This document shows positions 38,871 through 47,248 of a stretch of 64,000 bases of DNA, piece by piece. The notes beneath the pieces are model-generated. The model was given only the letters and a program-made list of their open reading frames with translations. It made no database searches and was not told where the DNA came from. The position numbers and the translations under genes were made by a program. Positions within the stretch are counted from its first letter, which is position 1. Each line of letters starts with the position of its first letter. Origin of the DNA: Opitutaceae bacterium (GTDB lineage Bacteria > Verrucomicrobiota > Verrucomicrobiia > Opitutales > Opitutaceae); NCBI GenBank assembly GCA_023269565.1, contig JAHFTD010000002.1, positions 1 to 64,000 of the forward strand. The letters are read 5' to 3'.

Positions 38871-38951
38871 GAGGAGATAGGATGCGGCCCGGCGGACCGG
38901 ACGCAAGCACGGCGCAGTTGACCCGCCACACGATTGTGCTTCCGTTGGCGC

Positions 38952-40691
38952 ATGTCCGAGACTCCGGCCGATGCGCCCATGATGTTCCTGTTACTCGCCT
39001 TCAACGAAAGCAACCAATTGGCCGTGCGGCGCGGCGGCAACCGGCTGGGCCACGCTTTTGTCGGGGCAACTGAGACGGCGGCGCGCGCACGACTGGAAGC
39101 AAACTTTCCCGGGCATACACCTCCGGCGGAGTATTTCACGGCACCAGCCGGCAGTGTGATTTACCGGGTATTTCTGACTCAGGTGCAGGGAGAATCGACC
39201 GACGGTGAGATAGAGTTCCATTCCCTGGAGGACTTGGAAAAACGACGCGCAGCACTCAGTCCGTCGCTGACCGTGGTTCTGGACGGCCTGGAGCCGCACC
39301 TAATGGCGGTTCCCTATCTGCAGCTGGGAGAGAACGACTATATCTACAAATTCCGGGTCGAGAAGGACCGCAACCAGGACATCTACCAGCAGGACGCGGC
39401 GGCGCGTGATCTCTACCAGAGCCACCTGTGCGAGGCGATCAAGGCGCTGGCGCGCACCAGCGAACGCACGGCCACGCGCCCGGCGCGGCTCGACTTCGGC
39501 GCCGTGCGTTATGTCATTCCCAGCCACTTCGGATTCTGCCTCGGGGTGAAGAACGCCATCGAGCGAGCCTACGAGACGCTCGCCGCCAACCCCGCCCGCC
39601 GGGTGTTTATGCTCAGCGAGTTGATCCACAATCCGTTTGTAAACGAGGATCTGCTCCGCCGCGGGCTGCGCTTTCTGCAGACGGACAAAGGGCTGCCCTA
39701 CACGCTGAGCGGCCGGATGGCCCAGACGCACAGCGGCGAGCTATCCCTATGGGATTCGCTCACCAGCGAAGACATCGTGATTATTCCAGCGTTCGGGGCG
39801 ACGGACGAGGACAAGAAACGCCTCGTGCGGAAGGGCATCCGCGTGGCGCAATACGACGCCACCTGCATGCTGGTGGAAAAGGTCTGGAAAGCCGCGCGCG
39901 CTTTCGGCCGCGAGGGCTTCACGGTCATCATCCACGGCAAAAGTGAACACGAAGAGACCAAGGCCACGTTTTCCAACACGCGGCGGCACGCCCATTCCAT
40001 CATCATCCGCACAATGGAGGAAGCCCGTCTGCTCGGCGACTTCATTGGCTGGCCCACTGAGGATAAGCACCGGGCGATACTCGTCCGCTTCGCCGGTTTA
40101 TATACGCCGGGCTTTGACCCTTCCCGGCATCTCGACCGCATCGCCATCGTCAACCAGACCACGCTACTCATGAACGAGACCGCGGCGATCATTGACTACT
40201 TCAAGGTCATTTTTGCGGAGAAATATGGAGAGTTGGACGGTCTGGCTCATGTCGGTGGTGCGGGCAAGAAAGACACACTCTGCTACGCCACCCAGGTCAA
40301 CCAGGATGCGCTCCGCCGCGCCCTGGAGGAAAGTCTCGACGCGGCTTTCATCATCGGCGGGAAAAACAGTTCCAACACCTACCAACTCTACCGTCTCTGC
40401 GAGGAGAAACTGGGCAAGCGGGCCTACTTCATCCAATCGGAGGCCAACATCCGCAACCGCGACGAGATTGAGCACTATGTTTTTCCTGCCGGGCATGGCC
40501 AGGGTGGCCGGACCGAGGTGCATCCGCTCTGGCCCAAAGACAAGACCGCTAAGGACGTGCTGATCACGGGCGGAGCTTCCTGCCCTGACGGACTGATCCA
40601 GCAAGTGATCATCCGCATAAATTCCCACTTTGCGCCCCAGCAGCTGCGCCGCGTAGAGGATGTGCTCCGGGATTTAACCGGCGGCGTTTAG
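38952..40691 (+). CDS. ispH: 4-hydroxy-3-methylbut-2-enyl diphosphate reductase with a long N-terminal extension
   Basis: IspH makes IPP and DMAPP in the last step of the MEP pathway using a [4Fe-4S] cluster. Motifs: SHFGFCLGVKNAI at about residue 190, YDATCMLVEKVWKAA, IHGKSEHEETKATFSN, IVNQTTLLMNET, GGKNSSNTYQL and ITGGASCPDGLIQ. The HGKSEHEET form matches the plant/cyanobacterial branch, not the short E. coli type. With 579 residues (ATG 38952) it is far longer than the ~310 or ~400 typical lengths, because about 185 residues precede the first cluster motif. I do not recognise that N-terminal part. The convergent OMP gene overlaps the stop by 4 nt. Confidence 0.92.
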   Translation: MSETPADAPMMFLLLAFNESNQLAVRRGGNRLGHAFVGATETAARARLEANFPGHTPPAEYFTAPAGSVIYRVFLTQVQGESTDGEIEFHSLEDLEKRRAALSPSLTVVLDGLEPHLMAVPYLQLGENDYIYKFRVEKDRNQDIYQQDAAARDLYQSHLCEAIKALARTSERTATRPARLDFGAVRYVIPSHFGFCLGVKNAIERAYETLAANPARRVFMLSELIHNPFVNEDLLRRGLRFLQTDKGLPYTLSGRMAQTHSGELSLWDSLTSEDIVIIPAFGATDEDKKRLVRKGIRVAQYDATCMLVEKVWKAARAFGREGFTVIIHGKSEHEETKATFSNTRRHAHSIIIRTMEEARLLGDFIGWPTEDKHRAILVRFAGLYTPGFDPSRHLDRIAIVNQTTLLMNETAAIIDYFKVIFAEKYGELDGLAHVGGAGKKDTLCYATQVNQDALRRALEESLDAAFIIGGKNSSNTYQLYRLCEEKLGKRAYFIQSEANIRNRDEIEHYVFPAGHGQGGRTEVHPLWPKDKTAKDVLITGGASCPDGLIQQVIIRINSHFAPQQLRRVEDVLRDLTGGV

Positions 40692-41935
40692 AATTTGATA
40701 CTAAGGCCGCCGCGCACGCCTACGGTGCCACTGAGGTCGATCTTGGCCGTCCGGCCGCCAACCGATTGACTGTAGTTGCCGATACTTTCGTAGCTGACAC
40801 CGGCAAAGACCCCGGCGCGATCATTCAACTGCCATTGGGCGTCCATGTTGGCATAATAACCGGAAAAATATTTACTCGCCACACTGTCCTCAGATACGGA
40901 AATGGGATCAGTAATACCCGTGGCTTTGAAAGATTCTGTCGCACTGTAGACACTGCCAGCGTAGGCGGCGGAGAAACCAATGCTGGTATTGATACTGATA
41001 TCCTTGGTCAACATGGCGCGGAGCTCGGGCCCGACACGCATGATGTAGTAAGCGCCTGATATTTTCCAAACCCCGTTCACATTCGCCGCCCCGGGAGTGG
41101 AAGTTTCGCGGTGACTGGTTGCATCTGGAACTGTAGCAAGAGGCACAGTGGTCTCAACACCCGACCCTACCACCGTGTTATCTGGCAATGTAAGGGCCGT
41201 AAAGGTTGGCGCAATATAACCCGCAGCAGGTATGCCCTGGTCAGGTTGCAGATTTAACAAAAAGATATCTTGGACGGAGTTTAACGTTGATTGGACATCA
41301 CCAGCTTTATTGCCACTGATGGTGCTGATGGCCAGTCCGGCCACCAAATTCACCTCCCAATGCTTGCCGAGTTTGCCAAGCAGTCTTTCCACTTGGAGTT
41401 CGACCCCGCTTGAATATTTGCTCTTCGTGTCGAATCCCGCCCCAGCGCTGGTTGCGCTATACGAATTCATCGCGATACCCGTGCCATTGCCCAGAGCGAC
41501 TACTTGTGAGGCATTGGAATAACTCCAATAGCGTGTTTGTCCGGGAGTATAGCTTAAATAGGGTCCCGTGGTCACATTATTGGTATCGGTGACGTAATAG
41601 ACACCGCCTGGGGCGGAGGTTTGCCGGCCGGCAGAATCTGCTTCATTCTGTGGCCCGGTAATGCGGAGACTGTCCTTGATGACACCTCCGTCGGTATATT
41701 TTCGATCGACTTCACCTGAGGAAGGTAAGGCAATGGGATTGGGGAAGGGCACCGTGCCTAGATTGCCAAAATGCACCTTGGGGCCGGTAGCCAAACGGAA
41801 TCCAAATTTCAGGTTGTTTTTTGCATCCGAGAAAAAACCGAGATCCCCCAGGTCCGTGTCCTCCTCCTCCTCGGCAATAATTTTCGGCCCAAAGGCCAGA
41901 CAGATGGCAGCGGCCAGATAAATGCGGATTTTCAT
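40688..41935 (-). CDS. Probable outer-membrane beta-barrel protein of the ParA cluster
   Basis: The ATG at 41935 gives 415 residues with a signal peptide (IRIYLAAAICLAFGPKIIA) and an acidic start to the mature chain. The body has alternating hydrophobic strands rich in Gly, Ser, Thr, Asn and Tyr (RLATGPKVHFGNLG, ISINTSIGFSAAYAGSVY, AGVFAGVSYESIGNY), and the chain ends with phenylalanine (GLSIKF), the usual signal for outer-membrane insertion. The gene is visibly more AT-rich than its neighbours. It is the last of four minus-strand genes headed by the ParA-like ATPase. No family recognised. Confidence 0.7.
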   Translation of the reverse strand: MKIRIYLAAAICLAFGPKIIAEEEEDTDLGDLGFFSDAKNNLKFGFRLATGPKVHFGNLGTVPFPNPIALPSSGEVDRKYTDGGVIKDSLRITGPQNEADSAGRQTSAPGGVYYVTDTNNVTTGPYLSYTPGQTRYWSYSNASQVVALGNGTGIAMNSYSATSAGAGFDTKSKYSSGVELQVERLLGKLGKHWEVNLVAGLAISTISGNKAGDVQSTLNSVQDIFLLNLQPDQGIPAAGYIAPTFTALTLPDNTVVGSGVETTVPLATVPDATSHRETSTPGAANVNGVWKISGAYYIMRVGPELRAMLTKDISINTSIGFSAAYAGSVYSATESFKATGITDPISVSEDSVASKYFSGYYANMDAQWQLNDRAGVFAGVSYESIGNYSQSVGGRTAKIDLSGTVGVRGGLSIKF

Positions 41936-41994
41936 ATGTTCAACGGAGATAGCGAATGCCGGCGCTTGGGAAAAGGCCAGAGCAATAAAGTTCC

Positions 41995-42738
41995 TCAAGC
42001 TTTTTCCATCGGCGCTTTCGGCTCGTCCTTCAGCAGGCCCATCTGCCGGAGCTTGCGTTTGATGTCCTCGCCCTGCTGTTCCAATTCCGTCTCTTTCTCC
42101 TGCTGTAGCTGCATTTTCTCAAAGAGGGTGGTTTCGCTTTGGTCCAGGAATTCCTCGCGCTCCTTTAGTGCCTGCCGCTGCTCCTTGATTGACTGTTCTT
42201 GCCGATCCAGCTCCTCCCTGAGTTTCCGCAGGGCCTCCTCCTGTTCGGGCAACGCCGCGGCACCGCCGGCAGCGGGCTGGTTTTGCATCGAGGCGATGAC
42301 CAACTCGCGGGCCTTGAGCAAGGCTTCGGCCTCCGCCAGCGCACGCTCGCGGTCCGTCAGCCTGGATTCAAGTGTGGCCAGGGCCATGTCGCGCTCCCCG
42401 AGCTTGGCTTCGAGGGTGCGAATGGCTTTTTCCAGTTCGGTGACCTGGCCGCCGGTCAGGGCTGCCTCACCCGACCAAGGGGCGCGGGATTTGGAAATGA
42501 TGGCGTCAATCGAGCGGCGCGCATCAGCCGTGGCCTGCGTTGCCTCCTGGGCGCGCTGCAGGGGGCTGATGCGGCGCTGGAGAACAAGAGGCTTGGGTCC
42601 GGAGGGTCGGGTCGCGGGATTGCCCGGCGGCGGGGCGAACTTAGGTGGGCCGGGCGGACGCAGCGACGGCGGAGGTGCGGACGACGGCGGAGGTGCAGAC
42701 GGCGGCGGGAGTGCGGACGGCGGCGGGGGGGCTTCCAC
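41995..42738 (-). CDS. Proline-rich coiled-coil protein of the ParA cluster
   Basis: This 247-residue protein starts at GTG 42738. The first ~50 residues are a flexible, low-complexity head with PPPSAP repeats. From about residue 85 to 235 it is almost entirely a long coiled coil (VTELEKAIRTLEAKLGERDMALATLESRLTDRERAL, then EQEEALRKLREELDRQEQSIKEQRQ), with no membrane helix or signal peptide. Such a layout (disordered arm plus rod) is common in cytoplasmic scaffold proteins. The gene is 15 nt downstream of the 325-aa gene and 59 nt upstream of the OMP gene. Confidence 0.75.
   Translation of the reverse strand: MEAPPPPSALPPPSAPPPSSAPPPSLRPPGPPKFAPPPGNPATRPSGPKPLVLQRRISPLQRAQEATQATADARRSIDAIISKSRAPWSGEAALTGGQVTELEKAIRTLEAKLGERDMALATLESRLTDRERALAEAEALLKARELVIASMQNQPAAGGAAALPEQEEALRKLREELDRQEQSIKEQRQALKEREEFLDQSETTLFEKMQLQQEKETELEQQGEDIKRKLRQMGLLKDEPKAPMEKA
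42660..42735 (-). repeat. GC-rich tandem repeat coding PPPSA units
   Basis: An ~18-nt unit (GCGGACGACGGCGGAGGT on the plus strand, with variants) is repeated about four times at the start of the coiled-coil gene and encodes its PPPSAP head. Such in-frame repeats can vary in copy number by slippage. Confidence 0.7.
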
Positions 42739-42753
42739 GGAAAAGGTGCAGGG

Positions 42754-43731
42754 CTAGCGCTTGCCGAACAACCGGGAGAACAACCCGGCCTTTTTCTCCG
42801 CTCCGGCGGCCGCGGCGGCAGCGGCAGGTTTCGTCCTGGCGAGCTGGCTCTTCAGGATATCACCAGTCAGTCGGGCCGCCACAGCCTCGCAGGCCGGGTC
42901 ATTTAGCGTAACCAAGTAACGCTCGAGCGAGGCGCCATCGGAGAGATTCTTAACCAACGCCGCCTGTTGATCTTTGAACCAGCCCAGCGTAGCTTCGATA
43001 TTCCGGCGCACGACGGCCTCGGTCTTGGCCAGTGATTCCGGGCCCATCGTCTTGGCCGCCGCCGCATCGGCCGGGCTGACCTTAGTGCCGTAGGACTTGG
43101 CCAAGGCCAGTTGCTCGGGACGCGGCAGCATTGCCACGGCGAGTCCCAGCGCCTCGGCGAGGTGCAGGCCGGTGGCGCCGCGGCGGTAGGGCAGGAATTT
43201 TCCAATGCCTTCCTCGTCGCCGTGCGTGAGCGCGTTCAGCATGTGGCGGAAATCACCGCCGAGCACAATGCGCGTGGACATCTGCTGGCCCAGGTTGGCG
43301 AATTCACCGATGGTCTTGATGCCCTCCGAGGAGCAGACCGAGCGCGTGCCGTCGCTCATTACGACCAGCGAAAGCGGATACGGCTCGGGGATGCTGAGAC
43401 GGGAGAGGGTTTTGAGGATGGGATTCTCCTTGGCGGAAGTCTCCTCGACCTGCGCCACCATGTCGCCGAACGGGTCGTCGAAGGAAAGGGTTTCTGAGAG
43501 AATGCTGGCGAGATGGTCGGCGCGGTCGGTTTTGCCCGCGATTTCCGGGAGCATCAACAGTTCCTCGTAGTTAAAATTGATATATTTGGTAGGTTTCTCG
43601 TCATCGGCTTTCAGCGGCCAGTCCTTGATTTCCAGGTTTTGGGCCAGGCTGACCAATGAAGTGTCAGCCATGATGGAATTGCGGAACTTGGTGCGGATAT
43701 CATCCCAGTCTTTGGCAGTATATTTGGCCAT
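42754..43731 (-). CDS. Cytoplasmic helical protein of the ParA cluster, unknown function
   Basis: The 325-residue protein has no signal peptide or membrane helix. It begins KYTAKDWDDIRTKFRN; the middle contains LSRLSIPEPYPLSLVVMSDGTRSVCSSEGIKTIGEFANLGQQM, which looks like a helix-hairpin-helix segment similar to the RNA-polymerase alpha C-terminal domain style (TIGEL/TIGEF motif). Then come helices and an alanine-rich linker (KPAAAAAAAGAEKK) that ends in a short basic-aromatic tail, GLFSRLFGKR. The tail after a linker looks like a targeting or docking peptide. It lies 26 nt after the ParA gene. Confidence 0.75.
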   Translation of the reverse strand: MAKYTAKDWDDIRTKFRNSIMADTSLVSLAQNLEIKDWPLKADDEKPTKYINFNYEELLMLPEIAGKTDRADHLASILSETLSFDDPFGDMVAQVEETSAKENPILKTLSRLSIPEPYPLSLVVMSDGTRSVCSSEGIKTIGEFANLGQQMSTRIVLGGDFRHMLNALTHGDEEGIGKFLPYRRGATGLHLAEALGLAVAMLPRPEQLALAKSYGTKVSPADAAAAKTMGPESLAKTEAVVRRNIEATLGWFKDQQAALVKNLSDGASLERYLVTLNDPACEAVAARLTGDILKSQLARTKPAAAAAAAGAEKKAGLFSRLFGKR

Positions 43732-43757
43732 GGCTCGTGAGTTTTGGTTATAGGAAG

Positions 43758-44651
43758 TTAACTGGAGGAGGTGTGCTCGATGATCTCGTTTGCCAGCCGG
43801 AGGTAGTCGTTGGCCACACTGTCTTCTTCCGTCCCCTCCGTGCCGACCAGGAAGACCGGCAGGCCCAGCGTGACGGCGCGTCGCACCACCATCGCGTCGC
43901 GGATCTGCGTGCCCATTAGTTTGGCGATCGGAGAGACGCCGCGCTTCTGCTGCTTAAACTGATTCAGGCGGAGTTGCATCCGCATCTTCGGCACCTCGAT
44001 GTCCACGTTCTGCTTGATGGAATTGAATACAATGCCGAAAACCATCGCCGCGGGCCCCATCGCCGTGGTGCGGAAGCTGGCAGAGGTTTGCTGGAAGCGG
44101 ACGAGCTTCTCGATGAGCAGCGTGAAGCCAATCAGACTCAGAGCGTCGGGATTGGAGGGCACATACATCTCGTTGGCGCAATAGACGCCGTTTTGGGAGG
44201 CGCGCAGGATGTTGGGCGGGCAGTCGAAGAGGATGAAGTCGTAATTCTTCTCAATCTCCGCCAGCTGCTCCTGGAAGATGACGTAGGAGGGTCGTTTGGG
44301 GTCGGATTTGTAATCGCCCTCGAGGTCGACGAGATTGAACGAGGTCGGGATGAGGTCGAGTCCGGGGAGGAGTTTCTCTCCTTCCTTACCCTCGAGCACG
44401 TCCTTGATCACACAGTCTTTCAAGCGCTGCGTGCCAGGATCAAAGATGGAATAAACCGAACCCGTGCCAGTCGCGTTGATCTTATTCCAGCGATCAAGCT
44501 TCATCAGCCAGATGCTGGCATTCGATTGCGTATCGAGGTCGATCAGCAGCACGCGCAGCCCGCGTTTGACGAGACTGGCTGCCGTGTTGACGATCAGCGA
44601 CGTCTTGCCAACGCCACCCTTGTAGTTGATGAATGCAATCTTGCGCACCAT
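43758..44651 (-). CDS. ParA/MinD-family ATPase
   Basis: The 297-residue protein has the deviant Walker A KGGVGKTS at residues 11-18, a switch region LIDLDTQSNAS with the ParA-type DxDxQ, and the Walker B region FILFDCPPN. It lacks the N-terminal DNA-binding helix-turn-helix of plasmid ParA and the C-terminal amphipathic helix of MinD. No parB, parS-like repeats or origin lie nearby, so it is an orphan positioning ATPase instead of the chromosome ParA. It heads a four-gene cluster and is divergent from a thioesterase gene across 143 nt. Known ParA relatives place cargos such as carboxysomes, chemotaxis arrays or secretion systems. Confidence 0.9.
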   Translation of the reverse strand: MVRKIAFINYKGGVGKTSLIVNTAASLVKRGLRVLLIDLDTQSNASIWLMKLDRWNKINATGTGSVYSIFDPGTQRLKDCVIKDVLEGKEGEKLLPGLDLIPTSFNLVDLEGDYKSDPKRPSYVIFQEQLAEIEKNYDFILFDCPPNILRASQNGVYCANEMYVPSNPDALSLIGFTLLIEKLVRFQQTSASFRTTAMGPAAMVFGIVFNSIKQNVDIEVPKMRMQLRLNQFKQQKRGVSPIAKLMGTQIRDAMVVRRAVTLGLPVFLVGTEGTEEDSVANDYLRLANEIIEHTSSS

Positions 44652-46094: not shown

Positions 46095-46535
46095 ATGAAG
46101 CCCACCGATCTCGCGCTCAACCAGACCCTCGGCATCGCTGATGCGCCCGCCGCCGCGACGCACGTTCTCGAGCTGCCGTTCACCCACCTCGTGCGCAACC
46201 ACATTGGCACGGTCCATGCCGCCGCCCAATTCGCGCTGGCCGAGGCGGCCGCCGCCGAGCGGTTGCGCCGGGATTTTGGCGCCCAGGCCGGTGACGTGGT
46301 GCCCATCATGCGGAGCGTCGAACTGAAATACCGGCAGCCAGCCACCGGCGATCTCCTTGCCTACGCCAGCGTCGCACCGGACGACCGCAGGCACCTCCTC
46401 TCCGATCTCGTGCAGTCCGGCCGCACCCTCGTGACTGTCGAGGTCGAACTGAAGGACCGCACCGGTGCGCTGACCTTTACGGGCAAGTTCCGTTGGTTCA
46501 TCGTCCGGAAGGACAAGTTCCCCGTGACATCATGA
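46095..46535 (+). CDS. Hotdog-fold thioesterase-like protein (DUF4442 type)
   Basis: The 146-residue protein shows LPFTHLVRNHIGTVHAAAQFALAEAAAAERL, a hotdog-fold helix and strand pattern seen in DUF4442 and acyl-CoA thioesterase-like proteins, and VELKYRQPATGDLLAYASV. It lacks a signal peptide. It ends in an ATGA overlap with the next gene, an exported protein. Function inferred from fold only. Confidence 0.7.
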   Translation: MKPTDLALNQTLGIADAPAAATHVLELPFTHLVRNHIGTVHAAAQFALAEAAAAERLRRDFGAQAGDVVPIMRSVELKYRQPATGDLLAYASVAPDDRRHLLSDLVQSGRTLVTVEVELKDRTGALTFTGKFRWFIVRKDKFPVTS

Positions 46536-47248
46536 GCCGCAGCTGGCAACTGCCCCGCGCCGTGCCATTGCTGCTGCTGGCCGCACTCATCCCCGGCAAG
46601 ACAGTGGCCGCCAGCATTCCAGATTATGTGCGGCACGCACTGGCCCAATTTACCGGCGATGCGCCCAAGGGGTGGGCGTATACTCTGACGACGCACAACG
46701 GCAAGGAAACCACGGTCGAGCGCTATGATCCCTCCCAGCCGCCTGGCCGCCAATGGATGCTCCGCGGCCGCAATGGGCGCGCTCCTACCGCTGCCGAGCT
46801 GGAGCAATACGCCAAATTCAAGGCCCGTTCCGCTCCGGCAGTGGCGCGCGCTTCCTTCGACAAGAGCGACATCGATATCGGCGCGGTGCAATTGCTGCAC
46901 GAAGACGCCAACCGCGCGGAATTCGATGGCCGGTTTCGCAATGACAACGGCGACAAGATGCTCGCCCACCTGGGCCTTCGGCTTACCGTAACGAAGCAGC
47001 CCGCTGCCGTTGAATCCTTCCGTCTCCGACTCCTCGCGCCATTTTCCCCCATCCTTGGCGTGAAAATCCAGAAACTAGAGGTCGAACTGACCAATTCACC
47101 GCCCGCAGCAGATCGCCCCGCCCTACCGCTGCACAGCCACGCCCAATTTCAAGGGCGGCTGTTTTTCATCAAAACCATTGAGGAAACCGAAGAGATCAGC
47201 TATTCCGACTACCTGCAGACAACAAGCTCCCCGCCGCCTTCAAAGTAA
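46532..47248 (+). CDS. Exported protein of unknown function
   Basis: ATG 46532 overlaps the previous stop (ATGA), so the track start is 39 nt too early. The 238-residue product has a signal peptide (AVPLLLLAALIPGKTVAAS). The mature part has alternating charged and hydrophobic stretches with no clear repeat. Phrases such as YTLTTHNGKETTVERYDPSQPPGRQWML suggest a periplasmic folded domain. Verrucomicrobia-like; no recognised family. Confidence 0.7.
   Translation: MSRSWQLPRAVPLLLLAALIPGKTVAASIPDYVRHALAQFTGDAPKGWAYTLTTHNGKETTVERYDPSQPPGRQWMLRGRNGRAPTAAELEQYAKFKARSAPAVARASFDKSDIDIGAVQLLHEDANRAEFDGRFRNDNGDKMLAHLGLRLTVTKQPAAVESFRLRLLAPFSPILGVKIQKLEVELTNSPPAADRPALPLHSHAQFQGRLFFIKTIEETEEISYSDYLQTTSSPPPSK

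Follow-up and report, generated by a model that had tools for sequence, protein, structure and literature searches.

An all-helical protein and a coiled-coil rod encoded with an orphan ParA-type ATPase in Opitutales: a candidate positioning system

PomXYZ of Myxococcus xanthus is the described system closest in design to the locus reported here. In PomXYZ, a ParA-type ATPase is accompanied by a protein with a proline-rich N-terminus, a basic activating peptide and a C-terminal coiled coil (PMC7993993, PMC13170346). This protein, PomX, is Ala/Pro-rich in residues 27-182 and coiled-coil in residues 222-401, and its basic activating peptide is N-terminal (PMC7993993). PomY has a globular winged-helix domain, and its activating region lies in the disordered C-terminus (PMC13170346). 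We analyzed a stretch of 64,000 nucleotides from an Opitutaceae bacterium (assembly GCA_023269565.1, contig JAHFTD010000002.1, positions 1 to 64,000 of the forward strand; hereafter the window), in which three consecutive genes encode a ParA-type ATPase (ParA), an all-helical protein of 325 residues (P325) and a coiled-coil protein (the rod). By a narrow balance, we favor the view that in Opitutales the products of this trio work together as a single positioning system of the ParA type, in which a membrane-attached cluster would be placed via the nucleoid.

The likeness to PomXYZ was drawn from published descriptions, and membership is not claimed. As in PomX, a proline-rich N-terminus and a coiled-coil C-terminus are found in a protein that is encoded with the ATPase. 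In contrast to PomX, the basic peptide of the Opitutaceae rod lies after, not before, the proline-rich segment, and nothing in the locus resembles PomY, as P325 is all-helical with a MinD-like tail. The set shares with MinCDE a candidate amphipathic membrane tail of the MinD type; however, this tail is carried by P325 and not by the ATPase, and MinC (MinC_C) was absent from all 57 relatives, although the same search found MinC in E. coli and B. subtilis. As in ParABS (Soj/Spo0J), ParA is a Soj-like P-loop ATPase, but no ParB lies beside it, and the genome encodes ParB elsewhere, along with another ParA, of the Soj type. The trio is a member of neither MinCDE nor ParABS. McdAB, ParC/ParP, PpfA and other orphan ParA systems are alike in that the partner of the ParA is specific to the lineage and unrelated in sequence. 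Unlike McdAB, the trio has no microcompartment genes beside it, and unlike ParC, PpfA and FlhG, it has no linked chemotaxis or flagellar genes and occurs in genomes that lack CheW and FliG.

Conservation and layout of the locus

Approximately 100 P325 loci were collected by a one-genome-per-species scan and by searches of relatives, and a profile for each protein was run on these loci. Two sets of testable loci, overlapping in species, were scored: ParA was directly upstream of P325 on the same strand in 48 of 49 loci of one set and in all 53 of the other, and the rod was directly downstream on the same strand in 45 of 48 and in 49 of 53, respectively (L047 was counted as rod-less in the profile run, yet the rod is present there). 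Chance falls far short of explaining an arrangement that is repeated at about 100 loci. A preliminary description of this locus had joined four genes into one set; upon comparison with relatives, the order of ParA, P325 and rod was found to be conserved, but the fourth gene, encoding an outer-membrane barrel, did not share this conservation.

P325 was present in 43 of the 384 genomes of a class sample and in 41 of the 388 genomes of an overlapping phylum sample, all of them Opitutales; the named loci belong to Opitutaceae, Opitutus, Lacunisphaera, Didemnitutus, Cerasicoccus and other Opitutales. Additionally, the pairwise identities of the three proteins co-varied across 24 loci (r 0.82-0.90), although common descent alone explains much of this.

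In the window, ParA, P325, rod and barrel genes run head to tail on the minus strand from 44651 to 40688 (Table 1). The intergenic gaps measure 26 bp between ParA and P325, 15 bp between P325 and rod, and 59 bp between the rod and the barrel ATG. No terminator-like site was found on the coding strand within the gaps among the four genes; such sites were no commoner than in shuffled DNA. The four open reading frames, their coordinates and their tight order were given correctly in the preliminary description, which was also right about a ParA-type ATPase gene with no parB beside it, a PPPSAP-headed coiled-coil rod and a barrel with a signal peptide.

The three proteins

ParA was assigned to PF13614 (AAA_31) by a Pfam search with an E value of 6.6e-36, and no NCBIfam equivalog was found above its cut-off. 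Its best matches were Soj/ParA proteins, and its best solved relatives were Soj proteins. Across 31 ParA sequences, the deviant Walker A motif KGGVGKTS with its signature lysine was invariant, as were the DTQSN and FD.PPN motifs, and the mean column identity was 75%. A basic stretch in the C-terminal part (residues 200-262, net charge +8) contained several conserved Lys/Arg residues, and the protein ended in EHTSSS, with neither a MinD-like C-terminal helix nor any membrane tail of its own. On account of the nucleotide motifs, the basic stretch and the missing membrane tail, ParA may be likened to the nucleoid-binding members of its class (PMC10241942).

The genome to which the window belongs is 84% complete. 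Its one ParB is encoded on contig C71, where the gene next to it is for a LysM protein and no ParA adjoins; one further ParA, encoded on contig C58, carries the Soj C-terminal motif RLSEAPSFGQ. As the Soj-type ParA and parB are located on these other contigs, the ParA of the trio is a second, orphan copy, and a pairing of this ATPase with parB elsewhere, which would have spoken against the orphan status first proposed, is unlikely. In complete relatives, parB is likewise apart from parA; the arrangement in which parB stands beside a LysM protein gene, away from a Soj-type parA, is shared by the window's genome with two complete relatives (L119:3950-5478, L120:3268-4062, L121, L122). A plasmid origin of ParA was rejected, as the best plasmid matches were only about 30% identical, and a defense system was also rejected, as the PADLOC matches were mere P-loop and coiled-coil cross-matches.

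P325 had no family in Pfam, NCBIfam or PHROG and no sequence match in the PDB, and its confident AlphaFold model matched no fold in the PDB or BFVD (viral) libraries at E<=0.001. Within the libraries searched, P325 represents a new protein family. A linker that varies joins the globular part of the protein to a conserved tail with the consensus KKxGxFxRLFGK. The tail of MinD is a membrane-targeting helix. On a position matrix of the P325 tail, the E. coli MinD tail EKKGFLKRLF (NC_000913) scored 15.6, while the best of 485 background proteins scored 3.3 and none of the 485 reached the MinD score. Since the tail resembles this helix, and a membrane-targeting sequence is used by MinD-like ATPases (PMC10241942), P325 is probably a peripheral inner-membrane protein. 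The basic-aromatic tail noted in the preliminary description was real and conserved, but the helix-hairpin segment claimed alongside it was weak, being reflected in a single fold match, to the RAD51C N-domain (prob 0.28).

The rod contained 44% proline in residues 1-55, and its second half (the last 150 residues) showed heptad periodicity with a z of 6.2 versus shuffles. Its GTG start is kept in close relatives. A basic motif, LxLxRR or KRxLSLR, was found in nearly all of 32 rods, being weak or questionable in L075 and L076; it lies near residue 50 here and near residue 10 in the short, distant forms without the proline insert. The N-terminus of the rod is basic, in contrast to that of P325, which is helical and neutral or acidic. 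Partners of ParA-type ATPases characteristically act via a positively charged, disordered N-terminus (PMC10241942), and by this rule, the rod, with its basic N-terminal peptide, is probably a better candidate than P325 for the ATPase-activating partner. The preliminary description, in which the 325-residue protein was the ATPase partner, had probably reversed the two roles.

Table 1. Features of the locus in the window and of related loci (aa, amino acids; pLDDT, predicted local distance difference test score)
Feature	Position	Strand	Remarks
ParA-type ATPase, 297 aa	43758..44651	(-)	PF13614; orphan, no parB adjoining
P325, 325 aa, all-helical	42754..43731	(-)	family without a name; AlphaFold pLDDT 89
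P325 C-terminal tail KKAGLFSRLFGKR	42757..42795	(-)	candidate membrane-targeting helix, MinD-like
Rod, 247 aa, GTG start	41995..42738	(-)	proline-rich N-terminus and coiled coil; kept downstream of P325
Rod proline-rich N-terminus, residues 1-50	42589..42738	(-)	presumably disordered; short or missing in distant relatives
Rod basic peptide LVLQRRISPLQR, residues 51-62	42553..42588	(-)	conserved; candidate ATPase-activating peptide
Rod coiled-coil region, residues 96-235	42034..42453	(-)	heptad periodicity
Outer-membrane beta-barrel	40688..41935	(-)	signal peptide, C-terminal Phe; neighbor, probably non-core
ParA with head-to-head partner, three relatives	L132:7106-8913, L133:6370-8609, L134:4266-6977

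Proposed mechanism and alternative readings

From these sequence features we infer nucleoid binding, membrane binding, ATPase activation and clustering. ATP-bound ParA dimers would coat the nucleoid, and the basic, disordered N-terminal peptide of the rod would stimulate the ATPase and so release ParA. The coiled coil of the rod would oligomerize into a scaffold, and P325 would serve as a helical platform at the inner membrane through its MinD-like tail, linking the membrane to the scaffold or to ParA itself. The nucleoid would then be the reference for placing the cluster, whether at midcell, at even spacing or at a pole. The preliminary description had envisaged the positioning of an envelope structure; a link to the envelope is plausible through the P325 tail, but not through the barrel, as described below.

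Several observations weigh against the proposed system. Four P325 relatives (L078, L106, L111 and L112) appear without a rod, and other ParA partners occur in relatives. The DNA-binding residues of ParA do not correspond one-to-one with the known lysines of H. pylori ParA. The amphipathic moment of the P325 tail was not significant versus shuffles in most single sequences; the moment by itself does not decide the matter, and the case for a membrane tail rests on motif similarity and conservation. Furthermore, no cargo gene travels with the trio, and none is kept beside it outside Opitutaceae.

The conserved neighbors of the trio were ispH, alaS, pdxH, a thioesterase gene and TonB. No chemotaxis or flagellar genes were found among the trio neighbors, no microcompartment genes among the conserved ones, and no secretion genes conserved next to the trio. 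CheW and FliG were both missing in 9 of 25 P325 genomes, six of which are at least 94% complete, and for this reason, chemotaxis arrays and flagella are unlikely cargos.

A role in division placement, as in PomXYZ, is possible but unlikely. The rod would act as PomX and ParA as PomZ, a membrane tie through P325 would replace PomY, and midcell would be marked for FtsZ. The rod resembles PomX, as described above, in its proline-rich and coiled-coil parts and in a candidate activating peptide that is basic; genomes that have neither flagella nor chemotaxis still retain the trio; and the 57 relatives without MinC would need another placement system. However, P325 has neither PomY features nor a fold match, no division gene adjoins the trio, and the absence of MinC does not track the trio, since P325-negative relatives also lack it; this absence leaves room for another division-placement system and is no proof of one. 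We regard as similarly doubtful an undescribed kind of ParA system in which one protein, ParA, would bind the nucleoid, another, P325, would provide membrane targeting of the MinD type, a PomX-like rod would join the two, and the division site would be set without MinC.

Somewhat less probable is nucleoid anchoring, in which a membrane-bound P325-rod cluster would be fixed and ParA would tether the chromosome to it, so that the nucleoid itself would be the "cargo". The same parts would fit, namely a ParA that is likely DNA-binding and a partner that is probably membrane-anchored, and chromosomal parB is nearly universal among relatives yet apart from parA. Nevertheless, a separate Soj-type ParA exists, and many related genomes without the trio must still segregate their chromosome.

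We consider it improbable that the trio places a machine of the cell envelope, for example the type II secretion system or type IV pili. In one genome (G038, L135:6038-12943), a second, divergent ParA of the trio type is convergent with the type II secretion/pilus genes gspF, gspE and gspD, and weak T2SSF matches were obtained for 5 of 36 P325 proteins, the best at 5.5e-4. These matches, however, fell on differing stretches and below the cut-off, the profile comparison with GspF gave a probability of 0.7%, and no GspF fold was found; a GspF-like origin of P325 was rejected on these results. In addition, no secretion gene is kept beside the trio.

There is an equally slight chance that the ATPase has a non-spatial regulatory or assembly role, as in some BcsQ-, Get3- or Mrp-like P-loop ATPases. 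Members of AAA_31 are functionally diverse, and the NCBIfam result given above would allow such a role, but the best matches of this ATPase were Soj/ParA proteins, and the combination of a coiled-coil partner and a membrane-tailed partner is typical of positioning systems.

The barrel and related loci

The barrel was predicted as a beta-barrel (AlphaFold pLDDT 86) with OmpT-type fold matches (E 5.5e-6) and had no match in Pfam, NCBIfam or PHROG. Its open reading frame was listed from a TTG at 41998; the ATG at 41935, which gives 415 residues, is most likely the true start, because the signal peptide begins there. The barrel gene was found directly after the rod gene in 32 of 46 testable GTDB loci. 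Among the 25 P325-positive genomes of the relatives sample, 14 had it directly after the rod gene and 7 had it at another place, while it went undetected in 4, including one (G032) whose contig stops inside P325. It was also present in 9 of 32 P325-negative genomes; in two of these negatives, G022 and G031, the apparent absence of the trio is a contig break, with a rod fragment at the contig end. In the trio-less G018, the barrel gene lies between ispH and the gene for a 251-residue protein (P251), with approximately 320 bp standing where the trio would be. Because its occurrence does not follow the trio and it stays beside ispH in G018, the barrel is probably a neighbor fixed beside ispH and not a core part of the system. 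The four-part envelope system of the preliminary description, with the barrel as a working part, is therefore very unlikely despite the frequent adjacency of barrel and rod.

The adjoining IspH (LytB) of the window (38934-40691, 585 residues) matched its Pfam domain in residues 197-562 only; the N-terminal extension of approximately 195 residues is part of a long form kept across Opitutaceae. P251 (window 46493-47248) is kept in the same neighborhood of Opitutaceae and had no Pfam or NCBIfam match.

This ATPase is evidently paired with several partners within Opitutales, as judged from gene neighborhoods. In related ARRANGEMENTS (families f11 and f22), genes for a Ser/Thr kinase and for a protein of approximately 240 residues precede a paralogous ParA-P325 pair. 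These operons (L123:3980-7761, L124:5767-9544, L126:6178-9949) encode the kinase, the ~240-residue protein, ParA and a diverged P325, with no rod. The ~240-residue protein (MRKFKV...PTIDDF) has no Pfam family, and its gene is also found in Cerasicoccus loci (L055, L058, L084), where it is divergent and just upstream of ParA; as a missing fourth part of the system it was rejected, being absent from Opitutaceae in the sample. In three P325-less relatives, a divergent ParA orthologue (43-46% identical) is encoded head-to-head with a protein of 234-559 residues (Table 1). This partner has a basic N-terminus (ARRRERSGRLSRL), an acidic middle and a conserved tail, KKKxSLLDSYFKGL. Lastly, G265 has three P325-like genes (L129:3003-4340, L130, L131), of which the L129 copy encodes 445 residues with no ParA adjoining.

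Most large structures in bacterial cells are placed by ParA-type ATPases, and many of these ATPases count as orphans for want of a known partner. Here, conserved gene order points to the partners, within a phylum that has received little attention in cell biology and an order, Opitutales, without MinC in the sample. If the proposed system is real, a separate protein with a MinD-like tail, from a new all-helical family, would couple a nucleoid ATPase to the membrane.

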